DNA of 64,000 nt from positions 1,736,001 through 1,800,000 of the forward strand of contig NZ_MWFK01000001.1 of the NCBI RefSeq assembly GCF_002078175.1. Reading direction: 5' to 3'. The notes beneath the pieces are model-generated. The model saw only the letters and a list, made by a program, of their open reading frames with translations. It ran no database searches and had not been told where the DNA came from. A program made the translations under genes and the position numbers. This DNA is from Streptomyces sp. M41(2017) (lineage in GTDB: Bacteria > Actinomycetota > Actinomycetes > Streptomycetales > Streptomycetaceae). Positions 57,105 to 64,000 of this stretch are shown piece by piece. Numbering within the stretch: the first letter of the stretch is position 1; each line of letters starts with the position of its first letter.

Positions 57105-59336
57105 TCACGTCCCAGGCTTGGGTCCGGCCCGTCGCGCGCCGCCGCGGTCGCCGTGCGGCAGCGCGCGGGCGAGATAGGGGTTCGCGGTCGAGCGGACCGG
57201 AAGTCCGAGCGAGGCGGTGGCCGCCTCCAGGGTCATCGCGTACGAGTCGACCGCCCTGAGCACGTTCGGGGCGTCGAGACCGGCCCCCGTGACCAGGCGG
57301 TCCAGGTCGACGTACGCCGAACGGACGATTTCGATCCACCGGTAGACCAGCCAGTCCTGCGCCCAGTCCTTGGTGTGCGTCCCGGGCAGCGCGCGCTCCC
57401 AGCGGCGGAACATGCGGGCGCGGATCTCGGGACGGGTCGGCGTGAGGTGAAGGTGCCTGACCAGGTCGTACAGCGGATCGCCCACCATCGCCATCTCCCA
57501 GTCGATGATGGTCAGCGCGAGGGAGTCGTCCCGGCGGACGAGGTTCCACGGGTTCAGGTCGCCGTGCAGCAGACTCGGTTCACGCGAGGTCACCCCGTGG
57601 CGGGAGAGGATCTCGCGCAGCCGTCGCGGGCCGGGCAGTCCGAGCACCCGGGCCAGTTGCTGGGACTCCTTGGGCAGCGCCTCGACGAGCAGCACGAGCT
57701 GGTTGCTCAGCCACTCGTAGAAACCGCCGTCGCCCGACCAGTCCGGGGCGGTCGGGTCCAGGGCGCCGTAGGCGACCCGGGTCAGCGCACAGAGCTGATC
57801 GACGAGACCGTCCGCCTCGTGGGGCAGCAGGCCGTTCACCGGGTGGTCGGGGGGACTGACACCGTCTTTCGGGCCTTCGTAGGTGTGGATGGCGAAGGCG
57901 TCCTTGGTGTGGCTCTCGCCCAGGACGAGCACCCTCGGCGCCGTCACGGCGGCACCCGACTCCTCGATGCCCCTGAGGACCGCGTGCTCGCTCAGATAGC
58001 CGCGTTCCCGGCGAGAGACCGATTCCGCCTTGCGTCGCACGACGACCGGAAATCCGACTCCCGGTACCCGCACGACCGTGTTGAGGTGGGCGGTTCCCTT
58101 GAACACGAGGTTGGCGGGAGCCGCGCCCTCGGCGATCAGGGCCTGCCGCACGGCCGAGCGGGGAAAGTCCGGCGGCGCGGTGAGCCGGTCGTCCGCCTTC
58201 CAGGAAAGGGCGGTGACCACGCGCCGGTCGCGCCGGGCGGCCTGCCAGCGGACGAGGACCCGCTCGATCTCGGCCTCGTCCGGGACGTGGCGCAGCCTGA
58301 GCGGTTCGGCCGCCGCCGTGAGGGCGGCGCTCACGGACGCCGTCGCCTCGTCCAGGCTCTTCTGGTCGTTCGCGTTCTCCAGGGACTTGGCGGCCCGCAT
58401 CACATCGGGGTAGACCGACTGGGCCCGCTCGAACGACACGTAGTGGCCCAGATCGCGGGCGAGGCCGCTCGCCGCCGCGGGCCGGGTGTCCTGGATGGAC
58501 CGTGCCCACGCGTCGATCACCTCTGTCCACTGGAACTCCGGATACCGCATCCGGACCAGGTGCGTGGCCAGATCGTGCAGCGGGTCGCCGTACGTCGCCA
58601 GCTCCCAGTCCACGCAGATCAGGGGCGGTTCCCCGCCGAAGGTGACGATCACGTTGTCGCGGTGCAGATCCGCGTGGAGGAGGCTGTACGGGCGGCGCGC
58701 CATCGTCGGGACCCGCTCGGACAGGCGGATCAGGGCGTCCTCGGGAATCCCCAGGGCGGCGAACAGCCCGCCGAAGTCCGCCCAATTGGGCTGACGAATT
58801 TGACGGTCGGCGCATCGGGCAAGCGTCTGCAGGAAGGCCTGACTGTCCTTGTCGTTGGACGGCCAGTCGCCGGGAAGGGGCGGCAGCGCCTCCCTGCGGA
58901 CCAGGGACATCTGCGCGAGCAACTCGGTCAGTGCCCTGACCAGGAGGCCGTCGACCGGCTTGCCGTTGGGACAGACGGTGGAGAGGGGAACGCCTTCCAC
59001 ATAGCTGTGCACGGCCGAGCCGCGACGACGGGCGAGGCACTCCGGTACGTGCCGCAGGACACCCCGGACGGAGGCGAGGATCTCCGACTCGTGCCGCCAT
59101 GTCCTGATGACCACCGGCAGTGCCTCGGGCCTGCGGATCCGCACCGTGGCCCGCGTACCCGGCTCCCGTTCCACGCGACGTGCCATCGCCTCCGTCAGGG
59201 GCAGCACGTAGTTGCGGTTGTGATGACCACCGCTCATCACTCCGAAGCGTCTCGCCTGTTCCACGAACTCGTCGTAGGCGTCATCGGCGGCACATCGTTC
59301 CCAGAAGGCGCGCCTGGGAACGGGAGATGCTCCCAC
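57105..59336 (-). CDS. Tandem-APH-domain phosphotransferase-like protein
   Basis: This 743-residue protein has two aminoglycoside-phosphotransferase-like domains in one chain. The first (about 50-330) carries LLHADLHRDNVIV and ICVDWELATYGDPLHDLA. The second (about 420-700) carries LLHGDLNPWNLVR and TIIDWEMAMVGDPLYDLVRHL. Both keep the catalytic Asp and metal-binding Asp motifs, so both could be active kinases. The substrate is unknown; APH-fold proteins phosphorylate antibiotics, choline or sugars. GTG 59336 is chosen because AGGAG lies six bases upstream; a TTG at 59366 is in frame. Confidence 0.82.
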   Translation of the reverse strand: MGASPVPRRAFWERCAADDAYDEFVEQARRFGVMSGGHHNRNYVLPLTEAMARRVEREPGTRATVRIRRPEALPVVIRTWRHESEILASVRGVLRHVPECLARRRGSAVHSYVEGVPLSTVCPNGKPVDGLLVRALTELLAQMSLVRREALPPLPGDWPSNDKDSQAFLQTLARCADRQIRQPNWADFGGLFAALGIPEDALIRLSERVPTMARRPYSLLHADLHRDNVIVTFGGEPPLICVDWELATYGDPLHDLATHLVRMRYPEFQWTEVIDAWARSIQDTRPAAASGLARDLGHYVSFERAQSVYPDVMRAAKSLENANDQKSLDEATASVSAALTAAAEPLRLRHVPDEAEIERVLVRWQAARRDRRVVTALSWKADDRLTAPPDFPRSAVRQALIAEGAAPANLVFKGTAHLNTVVRVPGVGFPVVVRRKAESVSRRERGYLSEHAVLRGIEESGAAVTAPRVLVLGESHTKDAFAIHTYEGPKDGVSPPDHPVNGLLPHEADGLVDQLCALTRVAYGALDPTAPDWSGDGGFYEWLSNQLVLLVEALPKESQQLARVLGLPGPRRLREILSRHGVTSREPSLLHGDLNPWNLVRRDDSLALTIIDWEMAMVGDPLYDLVRHLHLTPTRPEIRARMFRRWERALPGTHTKDWAQDWLVYRWIEIVRSAYVDLDRLVTGAGLDAPNVLRAVDSYAMTLEAATASLGLPVRSTANPYLARALPHGDRGGARRAGPKPGT

Positions 59337-59471
59337 GAGCCACTCCTGTTGATGAGGTTGCGGCAAACCCTAGCGTCACCGATGGCCTCTGGCGTGCTGG
59401 GACGGTCTCATTGGTGTAAACGCCTGCCGCGGCGGCAGGATGCGGACGGTATCGCCGCCACCGGAACTCCG

Positions 59472-60353
59472 TCAGACCGCGAGCAGGTTCCACACGGATT
59501 CGAACCATGCCTGGCTGTTGGTGACGAAAGCCGATCCGGTGGAGCCCGCTTCCTCGTCCTTCACGTAGTGCATGAGGCTGGCGCCGAGGCCCAGCACATC
59601 GACGGCGAGGGTCTCGCTGCCGTCGTCCAGCTCGATGAGGCGTTCGACCGGCGTATAGAGGGCCTGCAGCGCGTCGGTCCCGTTCAGCAGATACAGCTTG
59701 AACGTCGGGGTCAGCTCCACGTGGCGGATCTCCAGCTCGACGCTGGGCACCAGCTCCTCGACTTCGAGAGCCCTCAGCACGCGTCGAACAGATGCCGAGT
59801 GCCGACGTGTCAGACCGTGCAGACGGTCCCTCAGCCTGGGGTCGGCCGGATCGCCCTTGGTGCGCGGGTAAGGAACAGCCAGTTCCTCGGACGGGAGGAG
59901 CATACGTACGGTGATGCGCTGCGGGGCGATGTCCCCCGCGCGGATGCGTTCCTCCTGGACCCGGATATGGGTGTCGAGGGACTCGGACGTCAGCGTGTAG
60001 ACGTCGAGGGTGACCTCCGGCTGCTCGAAGGCCTGACCGATGATCGGCCCCAGAGTCGCCGCCCAGCCCGGCTTCGCGCCGCCGGGAACGCGGGAGGGAG
60101 CGCGCCGTGGTTCCACCACCCGGGAGACCCGGGACCCGCTGCCCTGGCGCGACATGATCCATCCGTCGTTCGCCAGCTCGCGCAACGCCCTTTGCACCGT
60201 GTCGCGGGAGACCTGGAACTCGCTCGCCAGCTCACGCTGCGTCGGCAGACCGGATCCCAGCGGATAGGTTCCGTCACCGATCCTTTCGAGCAGCACGCCG
60301 GCGACCCGCATGAACTCCGTGCCGCCGCCGTCGCCGATCCGCTGTCCGCTCAC
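59472..60353 (-). CDS. Winged-helix (GntR-like) regulator, cassette A
   Basis: This 293-residue protein has a GntR-type helix-turn-helix (about 12-75: LLERIGDGTYPLGSGLPTQRELASEFQVSRDTVQRALRELANDGWI). The C-terminal domain is unlike UTRA or FCD: PSEELAVPYPRTKGDP, FKLYLLNGTDALQALY, and an end AFVTNSQAWFESVWNLL shared with regulators B and C. The lead sequence is GTG at 60353; ATG 60311 is another candidate. It diverges from the 62-residue gene A. Confidence 0.82.
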   Translation of the reverse strand: MSGQRIGDGGGTEFMRVAGVLLERIGDGTYPLGSGLPTQRELASEFQVSRDTVQRALRELANDGWIMSRQGSGSRVSRVVEPRRAPSRVPGGAKPGWAATLGPIIGQAFEQPEVTLDVYTLTSESLDTHIRVQEERIRAGDIAPQRITVRMLLPSEELAVPYPRTKGDPADPRLRDRLHGLTRRHSASVRRVLRALEVEELVPSVELEIRHVELTPTFKLYLLNGTDALQALYTPVERLIELDDGSETLAVDVLGLGASLMHYVKDEEAGSTGSAFVTNSQAWFESVWNLLAV

Positions 60354-60470
60354 TCCCCGACCGTACCTCCACCACCCGACAAGCAAACCGATTCCAGTCA
60401 AGTCACCGGTCCAACCAGCCTTTCGGTTAAGGGATCAGGCAGGCAGGGCAGACAACCCATGAGTCAACCA

Positions 60471-60482
60471 GTCCAATTGGAC
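60471..60482. promoter_or_regulatory. Palindrome GTCCAATTGGAC in cassette A
   Basis: A perfect 12-bp palindrome lies 42 bp before the small gene A start, among further CAACC/GTTGA motifs. It is a candidate operator for regulator A. Confidence 0.45.
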
Positions 60483-60523
60483 GGATAGTTGAACACTTCG
60501 GCGGAGTGGACGGGGTGGGGGAC

Positions 60524-60712
60524 ATGGTCGTTTTCCAACTGATGGGCGCTGCGGTCGAATTCGGGACGGGATACCTGGTGCAGACGCGGCTCGGGGTGGT
60601 CGGGCTGGTTCTGCTCACCTTGGCCCTGGTGGGAGTCCGGGCCCGCGAGCCGCGGCTGGCGGGCTGGGCGGCGCTGTTGTTCCTGCTGCTCTGCCTGCAG
60701 GTTCAGAGCTGA
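60524..60712 (+). CDS. Small two-helix membrane protein A
   Basis: This 62-residue protein has two hydrophobic segments (about 6-20 weakly and 28-41, then 48-60) and the sequence LVQTRLGVVGLVLL, which aligns with the B and C homologues. It shares less with B and C than they share with each other. The ATG at 60524 follows GGGGTGGGGG. It overlaps the HAD gene 3' end by 10 bp in convergent orientation. Function unknown. Confidence 0.65.
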   Translation: MVVFQLMGAAVEFGTGYLVQTRLGVVGLVLLTLALVGVRAREPRLAGWAALLFLLLCLQVQS

Positions 60713-61440
60713 CCACGCAGAATCCGCAGTACGGTCTCCAGCGAGGACACCACGTCCTCGGCTCCCGCGTCACGCAGCTCCTTCTCCTTGCGTTCGTTGC
60801 GCGCGTAGCCGAGGAAGGGGACTCCGGCGCGCTGTGCCGCCTGAAGGTCGGAGGGGGCGTCGCCGATCATGAGCGCCGCGGAGGGTGCGGCGCCCAGGGC
60901 GCTCAGGGCCCGGTTGAGGCAGTGCGGGTCCGGCTTGAGGTGGTGCAGGTCCTGGGTGCGGCCGTAGATGTTGGGGGTGAAGCACTCGGTCAGGCCGCGG
61001 TCCGCCAGGTAGTGCGAGGCGGTCTGCGGGGAGTTGTTCGTGGTGATCGCGAGGCGCGCGCCCACCGCGCTCCAGGTGCGGATCACCGGGTCGGCGTAGG
61101 CGGTCGGCCAGGCGGACACCACCGCCTTCAGCTCCTGCTGGGTGAACCGCGCCTCCAGCTCGGCCACCAGATCGCTGTGCGGACGCCGCCGGTTGACCGC
61201 GTGCAGGACCACCATCGGATCGGGGTGCACCCGCTCCTCCGCGGTCAGCAGCCCGCGCATGCCCTGCCGTTCGAGCCACTCGACCAGATCCTGGGCCACC
61301 CGCTCCGCCGAATGGCCCGCGAACAGCCGGCAGACGGGCCCGTCGAAGTCGAAGAGCACGAAGCGGGCGCGGGTGATCGCGTCCCTGAGTTTCGCCGTCC
61401 GTGTCGCCGTCGCTTCGGCCTGCGCCGTTTCAGAAGTCAC
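60703..61440 (-). CDS. HAD-family hydrolase
   Basis: This 245-residue phosphatase has motif I FVLFDFDGPVC (nucleophile Asp), motif II ITTNNSPQT, a Lys in HHLKPDPHC, and motif IV MIGDAPSDLQAA. A cap domain follows motif I, so it is a phosphoglycolate-phosphatase-like class I HAD. The substrate is unknown. GTG start 61440 shares one base with the stop of regulator B (TAGTG), so it is translated with it; the two form an operon. Confidence 0.88.
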   Translation of the reverse strand: MTSETAQAEATATRTAKLRDAITRARFVLFDFDGPVCRLFAGHSAERVAQDLVEWLERQGMRGLLTAEERVHPDPMVVLHAVNRRRPHSDLVAELEARFTQQELKAVVSAWPTAYADPVIRTWSAVGARLAITTNNSPQTASHYLADRGLTECFTPNIYGRTQDLHHLKPDPHCLNRALSALGAAPSAALMIGDAPSDLQAAQRAGVPFLGYARNERKEKELRDAGAEDVVSSLETVLRILRGQL

Positions 61441-62294
61441 TAGGAGAGTTTCAGGTCCGTGGTGATGGTTTCCCAGAGGGCGTCGAACCACTTCTGCGAT
61501 TCCTCCACGAACGCCGCGTCCCGCCGGCCGGCCTGCTTCTCGAACGAGAAGAGGAGGGACCTGGCGCCGATGGTGTCGTACATCTCCAGGATCTCGCTCT
61601 CCACGGTCTCCTCACGCCGGGCGATCATGTAGTACGCGATCAGCGCCTCGGACTCGTTGAGCAGGTACAGCTTCACCGGCGGGGTGAACGGCAGCGCGCG
61701 GAAGGTCACGCGGACGTCGATGCCGTGGGAGGAGCGCAGGGACTGGAGGTTGTGCCGCAGCACCTGCCCCTGGGCGTTGCGCTGGCCCAGCCACCGCTTG
61801 TGGACGGCGTCGTCGTCCTCGCCCTGTCCGGGGACGGGTACCGGGAACGCCAGCGTGATGTCCCGGGAGGGCAGCAGGATGCGGACGTCGATGGACTGGG
61901 GGTGGAGCCTTCCGTCGTGGATCTGCCGGACGGGCTCACTGAGCGCCATCATCAGGGTCTCGGCGGTGAGGCAGGCCACGTCGACGCGTACGTGGGGCAC
62001 CGAGAACGCCTCGATGAGCCGGGGGGCGAGCCCTACCATCGTCGGCTGCGGCCCGTCCCGGGTGGGAGCGACGTCGGCGATCCGCGGGGGGCTGCCCTTG
62101 CTGACGTTGCTGAGGAGGCCGTCCGTCTGGAGCAGGCCGAGGGCCTGGCGGACGGTGCCGCGTTCCACACCGAACTCGTCGGCCAGCTCGGCCTGGGTGG
62201 GCAGGCGGTCACCCGCCTTGAGCTCACCGGTCCGTATGCGCTCCCGGAGGGTGTCGGCGATCTGCTGCGGCGAGAGCCTTCTGCTGTCGTTCAC
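61440..62294 (-). CDS. Winged-helix (GntR-like) regulator, cassette B
   Basis: This 284-residue protein has a GntR helix-turn-helix (about 8-70: TGELKAGDRLPTQAELADEFGVERGTVRQALGLLQTDGLL). The C-terminal domain includes NLQSLRSSHGIDVRVTF, ALPFTPPVKLYLLNESEALIAYY, and AFVEESQKWFDALWETI. It closely resembles regulator C (shared HNL-xx-LRSSHG and ALPFTPPVKLYLLN). GTG 62294 has AGGAG nine bases upstream. It diverges from small gene B and leads into the HAD gene. Confidence 0.83.
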   Translation of the reverse strand: MNDSRRLSPQQIADTLRERIRTGELKAGDRLPTQAELADEFGVERGTVRQALGLLQTDGLLSNVSKGSPPRIADVAPTRDGPQPTMVGLAPRLIEAFSVPHVRVDVACLTAETLMMALSEPVRQIHDGRLHPQSIDVRILLPSRDITLAFPVPVPGQGEDDDAVHKRWLGQRNAQGQVLRHNLQSLRSSHGIDVRVTFRALPFTPPVKLYLLNESEALIAYYMIARREETVESEILEMYDTIGARSLLFSFEKQAGRRDAAFVEESQKWFDALWETITTDLKLS

Positions 62295-62327
62295 GGCCAC
62301 GTTCTCCTGAGTCACGACCAGACGCTT

Positions 62328-62354
62328 CAACTGCCCTCCATCTACGGGCAGTTG
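62328..62354. promoter_or_regulatory. 9-9-9 dyad in cassette B
   Basis: CAACTGCCC, a 9-nt spacer, then GGGCAGTTG. A homologous element (23 of 27 bases) lies at 63629-63655 in cassette C. It is a candidate operator or promoter control site. Confidence 0.6.
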
Positions 62355-62403
62355 TTGGAAAGTTGTTTATGACTAGTAGCCAAGTGGGGACAACTTAACC
62401 ATA

Positions 62404-62416
62404 GTTGGCAACCAAC
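62404..62416. promoter_or_regulatory. GTTGG-N3-CCAAC in cassette B
   Basis: GTTGG (62404-62408), CAA, CCAAC (62412-62416). The same GTTGG-N3-CCAAC pattern is at 63705-63717 in cassette C, both between the regulator and the small gene. Confidence 0.55.
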
Positions 62417-62497
62417 CTGGCCAAGTTGGCGGAAGTTTTGCCTCCCCATCGTGGCCGGTCCCCCTGCCGGCCCTCCTTCCACCGCAGGAGGAACCAC

Positions 62498-62686
62498 ATG
62501 CCCGTCATCGCCCTCCTCTCCGCCGTCTTCGTCGTCGGCTTCGAGCAGCTGGTCCAGTGGCAGTACGGTCCGTCCGGCATCGTCGGACTGCTGCTGCTCG
62601 CCATCGGGATCAAGGCCAAGAGCCCCACGTGCAGCTCCATCGGGGCGGTCGTGCTCGCCCTGATGGTCTCGGGCCCGGCTCTGTGA
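62498..62686 (+). CDS. Small two-helix membrane protein B
   Basis: This 62-residue protein reads MPVIALLSAVFVVGFEQLVQWQYG, a loop, then GIVGLLLLAIGIKAKSP with a third hydrophobic patch. The FEQL-V/I-QW-x-YG motif is shared with C. It probably has two membrane helices with a short cytoplasmic turn. The ribosome site AGGAGG lies seven bases before the ATG. Function unknown. Confidence 0.75.
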   Translation: MPVIALLSAVFVVGFEQLVQWQYGPSGIVGLLLLAIGIKAKSPTCSSIGAVVLALMVSGPAL

Positions 62687-62713
62687 GCTGCGCGGTACCG
62701 CATCCGGGAGGCC

Positions 62714-63616
62714 TCAGCCCGAGAGCACCAGCTCGGAACTGATGGTCTCCCACAGCGCGTTGAACCACAGGTGGGACTGCTCCACGAACGTCGTGTCCCG
62801 CAGCCCCGCGCCCTGGGCGAAGGGGAAGAGCGTGGAGCGGGTGCCCTGGACGTCGTACAGCTGCAACTGCTCATGGTCGATCTCCTCCTCCCGCCGGGCG
62901 AGCGTGTAGTACGCGAAGAGCGCCTCGACGCCGTTGAGCAGGTACAGCTTCACCGGCGGGGTGAACGGCAGCGCCCGGAAGGTGACGCGGACATCGACGC
63001 CGTGCGAGGAACGCAGGGCCAACAGGTTGTGCCGCAGCACCTGCCCCTGCGCGTTGCGGTTGGCGAGCCAGTTGCGCTGGAGCCGGCTGTCGGTGCGGGC
63101 GTCGACGGGCGCCGGGAAGGCCAGGTCGATGTCACTGCTCGGAAGCAGCACCCGGACGTCCACCCTGGCCGGTTTCATGCGTCCGGCGTGAATCTGACGC
63201 AGCGGCTCCCCCATCGCCAGGGTCAGCGAGATCGACGTGAGACACAGCGCGTCGATCTCCACGTGCGGGGCGCGGAACGCGGCCGTCACCCGTGCGCCGA
63301 GTGCCACCGTGGTCGGCTGCGGCACGGCTTCCGGGCCGGTCAGAACCCTCTCGGGAGGCTCCGCGACGGTCGCCGGGCTCCCCTTGGACACGTCGACGAG
63401 CAGGTGCTCCGACTGGAGGATGCGCAGCGCCTGGCGCACCGCGCCGCGCTCGACCCCGAACTCGTCGGCCAGCCTGGCCTGGGTGGGCATGCGCTCGCCG
63501 GCCCGCAGCTGACCGGACCTGATCCGGCTGCGCAGCTCGTCGGCCACCTCGCGGTGTGACCTGGGTGGCCGTGGTGACCTCTTCCGCCCGTTGACGGCGG
63601 CATGTTCCGGCTCCAC
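62714..63616 (-). CDS. Winged-helix (GntR-like) regulator, cassette C
   Basis: This 300-residue regulator has a helix-turn-helix (about 25-85: SGQLRAGERMPTQARLADEFGVERGAVRQALRIL) and the shared C-terminal domain: NLLALRSSHGVDVRVTF, ALPFTPPVKLYLLNGVEALFAYY, TFVEQSHLWFNALWETI. It is a paralogue of regulator B. GTG 63616 is preceded by a TAGTGT -10-like hexamer (63623-63628) with no ribosome site, consistent with leaderless translation; a TTG at 63622 is the alternative. It ends 27 bp from small gene B. Confidence 0.82.
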   Translation of the reverse strand: MEPEHAAVNGRKRSPRPPRSHREVADELRSRIRSGQLRAGERMPTQARLADEFGVERGAVRQALRILQSEHLLVDVSKGSPATVAEPPERVLTGPEAVPQPTTVALGARVTAAFRAPHVEIDALCLTSISLTLAMGEPLRQIHAGRMKPARVDVRVLLPSSDIDLAFPAPVDARTDSRLQRNWLANRNAQGQVLRHNLLALRSSHGVDVRVTFRALPFTPPVKLYLLNGVEALFAYYTLARREEEIDHEQLQLYDVQGTRSTLFPFAQGAGLRDTTFVEQSHLWFNALWETISSELVLSG

Positions 63617-63628
63617 GACCAAACACTA

Positions 63629-63655
63629 CAACTTCCCGCCATCTTTGGGCAGTTG
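63629..63655. promoter_or_regulatory. 9-9-9 dyad in cassette C
   Basis: CAACTTCCC, 9 nt, GGGCAGTTG. It matches 23 of 27 bases of 62328-62354; the arms keep eight of nine pairings. Similarity continues to its right, including TTATGA. Confidence 0.6.
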
Positions 63656-63703
63656 CCGGATAGGTGGTTATGAGTCGTCCCAACATGGAGATAACTAGGA
63701 GTG

Positions 63704-63718
63704 AGTTGGTCGCCAACT
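63704..63718. promoter_or_regulatory. AGTTGG-N3-CCAACT dyad in cassette C
   Basis: AGTTGG (63704-63709), TCG, CCAACT (63713-63718) form a perfect dyad. It matches the GTTGG-N3-CCAAC core in cassette B (62404-62416). Confidence 0.6.
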
Positions 63719-63835
63719 TGCACAACATGGTCAAGCTTCCAGGGGGTTGGCCGCCTGAGCATCGCCTGCGGATCGGGTGACGGGGCGGACGGTCCTCAAC
63801 GGGGTTCGCCTCCCCGTCCCGAAGGAGGGACCGTC

Positions 63836-64000
63836 ATGCCGCTCATCGCCCTCGCCGTCGCCGCCCTCGCCATCGGATTCGAGCAGCTCATCCAGTGGAA
63901 ATACGGGCCGATGGGCATCATCGCGTTCGTCGCACTGTCCGTCGGCCTCAAGGCCAAGAACACCATGATCAGCGGCATCGGGGCGGTGATCCTCGTGATG
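63836..64000 (+). CDS. Small two-helix membrane protein C (partial)
   Basis: The 55 visible residues (MPLIALAVAALAIGFEQLIQWKYG, GIIAFVALSVGLKAKN) match small protein B closely, including the FEQLIQW-x-YG motif and KAK after the second segment. The gene runs off the right edge. The ribosome site AAGGAGG lies seven bases before the ATG. It is the divergent partner of regulator C. Confidence 0.75.
   Translation, partial: MPLIALAVAALAIGFEQLIQWKYGPMGIIAFVALSVGLKAKNTMISGIGAVILVM

Follow-up and report, generated by a model that had tools for sequence, protein, structure and literature searches.

Three probable paralogous dev modules in Streptomyces: regulators with a predicted phospholipase D fold, candidate palindromic operators and small hydrophobic proteins

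The closest described system to the locus studied here is devA/devB/devC/devE of Streptomyces coelicolor (SCO4190, SCO4188; Clark & Hoskisson 2011, PMC3187754). There, devA is co-transcribed with devB, which encodes a putative phosphatase/hydrolase, the divergent gene devC encodes a small hypothetical protein of about 50 amino acids (aa), and devE is an adjacent paralogue, with 57.6% identity between DevA and DevE (303 aa). DevA is reported to control itself and devB by negative autoregulation, and devA and devE mutants are viable with distinct sporulation defects, both regulators being needed for normal sporulation. In the same text devC is named rather than studied, knowledge of the DevA and DevE regulons and ligands is called early-stage, and the place of DevB in the hierarchy is called unknown. 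Here we analyse the end of a 64,000-nucleotide (nt) stretch of Streptomyces sp. M41(2017) (contig NZ_MWFK01000001.1, positions 1,736,001 to 1,800,000; the window, part of a 9.0 Mb genome, G000), where three modules of this kind, A, B and C, lie side by side. We hold with moderate confidence that these are three paralogous dev modules, in which the regulator is likely to repress its own and the neighbouring genes as long as no ligand, probably one bearing phosphate, binds a C-terminal domain predicted to be a catalytically dead phospholipase D (PLD) fold.

The gene order from 57105 to 64022 is APH-type kinase (−), regulator A (−), small protein A (+), HAD hydrolase (−), regulator B (−), small protein B (+), regulator C (−) and small protein C (+) (Table 1). 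An initial annotation, made from the letters of the window, had described three minus-strand winged-helix regulators, each divergent to a protein of about 62 residues, with a third cassette running past the window end. This was borne out: the open reading frames (ORFs) were confirmed, all three regulators have an N-terminal GntR winged helix-turn-helix (HTH) domain (PF00392) above cut-off, and the gene of small protein C ends at 64022. Its cassette picture was incomplete in that the HAD gene sits between cassettes A and B, immediately behind regulator B. Its statement that no system of this form had been described does not stand, and an undescribed new system was rejected, since the dev locus is in print (PMC3187754). 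That locus also largely supplies a known regulator family with an established partner, which the annotation itself had named as the outcome that would count against it.

The combination of devA with a HAD-type devB and a divergent devC is seen with regulator B only, and by gene order and published identities B is most likely DevA, C DevE, the HAD protein DevB and small protein B DevC. The arrangement is that of S. coelicolor, B and C being 60% identical (57.6% published) and C having 302 aa (303 for DevE), but the present locus has a third cassette behind devB, which includes an APH-type kinase. Regulator A, 33% identical to C, resembles the DevF and DevG proteins of Streptomyces sviceus (SSEG00372 and SSEG00373; 31% and 33% identical to DevA) as an extra distant copy, the two being set side by side by published identities only. 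The locus is thus known as a system, and what we add is a predicted fold, palindromes, a family-wide small-protein partnership and a pattern of enzyme genes.

In a tree of 88 regulator domains, the DevA/DevE rows form one clade (25 rows, 99/91) and the A class another (42 rows, 100/99), and a supported branch (99/97) separates the two together from the rows of other families. In contrast, the dev paper relates DevF and DevG to singletons of other genera. The C rows form a clade (97/85), with no resolved second clade of DevA rows, and 16 other-family rows group with two Streptomyces rows (L097, L099) with weak support (89/46). The root was drawn at the midpoint; two other-family genes are present twice, three partial other-family domain matches were left out, and the rows from outside Streptomyces are from other families, other genera of Streptomycetaceae not being included. 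Two regulator alignments took 72 of 90 selected sequences (A6; those dropped by hand were two evidently short sequences and a further 16) and 71 of 88 (A7). Set apart in the tree are three Streptomyces rows of great divergence (100/99). A very divergent group of regulators, 18–20% identical to DevA over the full length (inner branch 1.42), is found further along the same locus (L120:11349-11975, L126:11393-12040 and L134:11052-11711).

The small proteins are a protein family that recurs in other genomes more than by chance, and they are found almost constantly beside a regulator. Among 150 genomes of the genus, a small-protein match (E <= 0.01) is present in 86 and the regulator C-terminal domain (E <= 1e-4) in 102. 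The count of small-protein homologues divergent to a regulator with the same C-terminal domain, which the initial annotation had proposed as a check, came to 117 of 125, at distances of 384-874 nt and including regulator rows added for 16 genomes (109 of 125 in a first listing with a limit of 1300 nt). Of the eight unpaired matches, three are weak (E > 0.001), a further one (G092) has a partial domain match 1.16 kb away, and the remaining four are orphans. In the family's other genera, each of the 22 genomes that carry the small protein carries the regulator domain as well; among the matches listed (17 genomes) 18/18 small proteins are paired, 17 of them separated from the regulator domain by 453-638 nt and the last by 126 nt, the small-protein matches of the five further genomes falling outside that listing. 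Family-wide, the small protein occurs in at least 109/297 genomes and at least 4/17 genera. Class-wide, it occurs in at least 23/394 genomes and at least 1/137 genera, and the C-terminal domain in at least 44/394 and at least 9/137; these are lower bounds, as the best 7 (domain), 16 (small protein, class) or 21 (small protein, family) candidates per genome were scored.

We drew 322 distinct regulator domains from 179 loci and classed them by best match to copies A, B and C of the window (with a distant group for each). A divergent small protein accompanies 227 of these and is missing from 89, the six unique regulators with less than the 1400 nt upstream that make a regulator testable being set aside. 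The small gene is present beside 116/118 testable regulators of the B class, 68/122 of the C class and 25/42 of the A class, and beside 11/19 A-distant, 6/13 B-distant and 1/2 C-distant ones; the loci were drawn by similarity to dev genes, so these fractions describe that sample. According to the dev paper, S. sviceus and S. coelicolor alone have retained a devC-like gene beside devE, whereas devE has its own devC-like gene here, and its presence beside 68/122 testable DevE-class regulators makes the two-species claim too narrow, although loss is common. The one repeated functional unit proposed in the initial annotation is therefore conserved across genomes without being obligatory, the small gene being missing beside 54/122 DevE-class and 17/42 A-class regulators. 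The near-constant pairing suggests that whole regulator–small protein units were probably duplicated together. Outside the family, a HAD homologue follows the regulator at 15/15 loci, where searches scoring at most 16 candidates per genome detected no small protein (<1 kb of upstream sequence is present at two of the loci), so that the regulator–HAD pair looks ancestral, with the small gene probably a later addition made in the family's ancestor.

In addition, we identified palindromes between regulator and small gene. The form GTTGGN3CCAAC is present in 97/115 B-class and 121/121 C-class regions (68/68 with the small gene, 53/53 without), and in 5/6 B-distant regions with the small gene; Markov-shuffled regions (40 rounds) gave at most one palindrome in each class tested. 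B regions contain on average 6.1 AGTTG/CAACT half-sites, compared with 0.5 after shuffling. At cassette A a separate palindrome, GTCCAATTGGAC, occurs once in the genome, and its core CCAATTGG is found in 25/25 A-class and 11/11 A-distant regions with the small gene and in 7/17 and 5/7 without it. This agrees with the HTH helices, which are nearly identical in B and C and different in A. The spacers are mostly TTG in DevA sites and TCG or TCA in DevE sites. We infer that the palindromes are operators, a role that fits the published negative autoregulation of devA, and that the small gene would be repressed through them; the control of the small protein by the regulator suggested in the initial annotation is thus plausible. 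GTTGGN3CCAAC occurs at four places in this genome, two at the dev locus and two within reading frames, one in a purL-like gene and the other in a large ORF (both named by eye), and a backward-read control at three; the predicted regulon is small, namely the module itself. At the 53 C-class loci that have no small gene, a conserved GC-rich stretch resembling an inverted repeat follows the palindrome, and small gene C itself is followed by a stretch of similar kind (L009:6058-6090), as if the intervening gene had been deleted in the gene-less loci.

The C-terminal domain is common to the three regulators, and no Pfam model covers it in the 74 members scanned (matches up to E 0.1). The initial annotation had called it shared and unusual; shared it is, but it appears in the dev paper as the DevA-subfamily effector domain. 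DevA-type (not FCD, UTRA or MocR) is a label taken for A, B and C from gene order and that paper. Searched against PDB sequences, the profile of the whole regulator gave matches to the HTH part, and structure alignment of the whole model (VIA-align) gave mostly HTH rows, hence our use of a model of the domain alone. The AlphaFold2 predicted local distance difference test score is 90.8 for regulator B and 96.0 for this domain, which is confidently predicted to be one PLD-fold module: the 50 structure matches listed are all of PLD or TrmB type by our own classification, and unrelated folds come only far down the Foldseek list, from an E-value of about 0.05 on. At the strand aligned to the HxKxxxxD motif the His is found in 0/88 rows, the Lys in 88/88, and the Asp is mostly Asn (74/88), while five matches to the motif in the set sit elsewhere. 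PLD catalysis is not expected given these changes, which set the dev domain apart from the single-module PLD nucleases Nuc, NucT and Zucchini. The literature searched (open-licence papers; titles and abstract openings) names no PLD fold for DevA.

The enzyme genes next to the regulators follow the classes. A HAD homologue lies downstream of 82/84 B-class regulators, and an APH homologue behind 43/49 A and A-distant regulators with at least 2500 nt downstream; in the DevE class neither is found behind the regulator (0/103). DevA-type regulators thus adjoin a phosphatase-like gene and A-type regulators a kinase-like gene, and in the window both lobes of the kinase keep HxDxxxxN. The HAD gene most likely starts at a GTG at 61440-61438, with a 1-base overlap with the stop codon of regulator B, as expected for a coupled operon.

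The PLD fold commonly binds phosphate groups. Together with Arg58 and Lys128 of the domain, which are invariant in 88/88 rows, and with the phosphatase-like enzyme beside DevA and the kinase-like one beside A, it suggests that the ligand carries phosphate, although each of these three hints is weak alone. The regulator might instead sense a neutral sugar, like archaeal TrmB, with the phosphatase and kinase neighbours unrelated to the ligand. The alignment to TrmB takes in residues 112-243 and stops short of the sugar contacts G320 and E326 named in a review, and the invariant Arg and Lys and the tight enzyme linkage also speak against a neutral sugar, which we find quite improbable. From TrmB-type archaeal regulators (2f5t, 3qph; TrmBL2, 5box), which are among their closest known counterparts, the dev regulators further differ in that their HTH is of the GntR family. 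Membership of the TrmB family was rejected: the HTH of regulator A scores 25.0 against the PF01978 cut-off of 25.6, B and C are not listed, and the TrmB effector domain PF11495 is absent among matches up to E 0.1 of the 74 members, none of which matches a TrmB Pfam model in the C-terminal domain.

As the initial annotation had it, the small proteins align with each other: identity is 48% between B and C and 26-29% between A and either of these, and 11 columns are invariant in all three. The two-helix membrane protein it described is hydrophobic, but hydropathy gives three hydrophobic stretches rather than clearly two helices, and from these a membrane location is predicted; the mean net charge is about +2. 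None of the three has a match above cut-off in Pfam, NCBIfam or PHROGs, and the match of profile A2 to small protein A (E 2.6e-29) arises by construction, as A2 contains this protein. Second codon positions are the least variable in all three small-gene classes, but single-base differences are split about evenly between synonymous and non-synonymous ones, so purifying selection on the small genes looks modest. Short (about 61 aa), hydrophobic, positively charged and divergent to a repressor-type gene, these proteins could also be the membrane-active peptides of toxin–antitoxin-like pairs, held in check by the transcriptional repressor. We regard this as very improbable: regulators persist where the small gene has been lost, a few small genes have no neighbouring regulator, small proteins B and C have no PADLOC match and A, B and C no PHROG match, and devA and devE mutants live, with developmental phenotypes (PMC3187754). 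A defence or phage element was likewise rejected, there being no PADLOC match (E <= 0.01) for small proteins B and C, the HAD protein and the APH protein, and no PHROG match for the small proteins; regulator B has a weak HTH match to PADLOC mad1 (E 0.0041) and five PHROG matches, all in the HTH region.

Several observations weigh against a repressed, ligand-released module with the small protein as a partner. The palindrome is kept in all 53 C-class regions that have no small gene, so that it does not need this gene, which is possibly a passenger, and it is found in 0/8 B-distant regions without the gene; its 3-base-spacer form is missing in 18/115 B-class regions, four of which have a 2-base-spacer form. 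The species are related, hence the palindrome counts are not independent, and the core shared by DevA and DevE sits uneasily with the published inference that DevE does not act on devA. Four small genes have no regulator within 1 kb (G085, G123:C44, G021 and G002), although a regulator domain lies 1.4-1.6 kb away in G021 and G002; the search of the G085 genome gave no DevA-type domain at all. There are exceptions to the enzyme rule, with an APH homologue behind 4/84 B-class and 3/13 B-distant regulators and a HAD homologue behind 1/18 A-distant ones. As for the ligand, the Foldseek E-values of the domain are modest (best 4.0e-05), a PLD fold alone is no proof of phosphate binding, and the TrmB alignment, ending where it does, gives the dev ligand no name.

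Some of these points would also follow if the small proteins were bystanders, the palindrome serving regulator autorepression only and the small gene having kept its place through duplication. The 54 gene-less DevE-class regulators, the regulator–HAD pairs outside the family and the modest selection on the small genes are in keeping with this, but the small gene is kept by all but two of the testable DevA-class regulators with its protein sequence conserved, and the pairing reaches other genera of the family. We therefore consider bystanders unlikely.

The mechanism we favour, with the small protein as a partner, would run as follows. A regulator dimer on the palindrome would silence its own gene, the downstream enzyme gene if there is one, and the divergent small gene. 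At some stage of aerial growth the ligand would change and the dimer would leave the palindrome, so that the small protein is made, together with the phosphatase DevB in the case of DevA; DevB would then lower the ligand, closing the loop, and the small protein may act on this same signal within the membrane. The loops of B, C and A could run in parallel, at different times or with different ligands. More tentatively, and on balance we doubt it, DevA-type proteins may be a separate class of one-component switches, in which a GntR HTH is joined to a disarmed PLD module sensing a phosphorylated metabolite or lipid head group at a level set by DevB or by the kinase of cassette A, and a DevC-type peptide relays the signal from the membrane, or acts on it, in aerial growth and septation, with three parallel sensor loops. 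The predicted fold, candidate operator, small predicted regulon and phosphatase- or kinase-like neighbour make the questions of regulon and ligand directly testable, and the small protein emerges as a partner probably duplicated with the regulator.

Table 1 Features of the three dev modules, in window coordinates
Feature	Position	Strand	Evidence
Two-lobed APH-type small-molecule kinase, downstream of regulator A	57105..59366	-	PF01636 E 7.3e-43, 2 stretches
Regulator A, GntR HTH and DevA-type C-terminal domain, DevF/DevG-like class	59472..60401	-	GntR E 2e-18; A clade in tree (42 rows, 100/99)
Predicted operator A, perfect palindrome GTCCAATTGGAC	60471..60482	.	Single copy in 9.0 Mb genome; core CCAATTGG conserved
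Small hydrophobic protein A, 62 aa, devC-like	60524..60712	+	ORF and alignment to small proteins B and C
HAD hydrolase in devB position	60703..61491	-	PF00702 E 2.1e-17; HAD motifs present
Regulator B, DevA orthologue by gene order	61440..62330	-	GntR E 2e-18; HAD gene directly downstream
AGTTG/CAACT half-sites near predicted DevA operator	62350, 62361, 62391, 62403, 62424		
Predicted DevA operator GTTGGCAACCAAC	62404..62416	.	GTTGGN3CCAAC conserved in B-class regions
Small protein B, most likely DevC, 62 aa	62498..62686	+	ORF; 48% identical to small protein C
Regulator C, most likely DevE orthologue, 302 aa	62714..63622	-	GntR E 9.8e-16; 7 C-class rows form one clade (97/85)
Predicted DevE operator GTTGGTCGCCAAC	63705..63717	.	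Palindrome in 121/121 C-class regions
Small protein C, devC-like beside devE, 61 aa	63836..64000, ends 64022 in window numbering (L009:5837-6022)	+	

The named relatives of the locus are all Streptomyces (80/80 loci kept). Past small gene C the chromosome continues with ordinary-looking genes, including acetyltransferase-like and asparaginase-like ORFs (named by eye). Between these two, beyond the window end (L009:7560-7870), lie three near-identical GC-rich repeat units with GGGCTTGTCGCG...CCCCGCGCCCCTGA.

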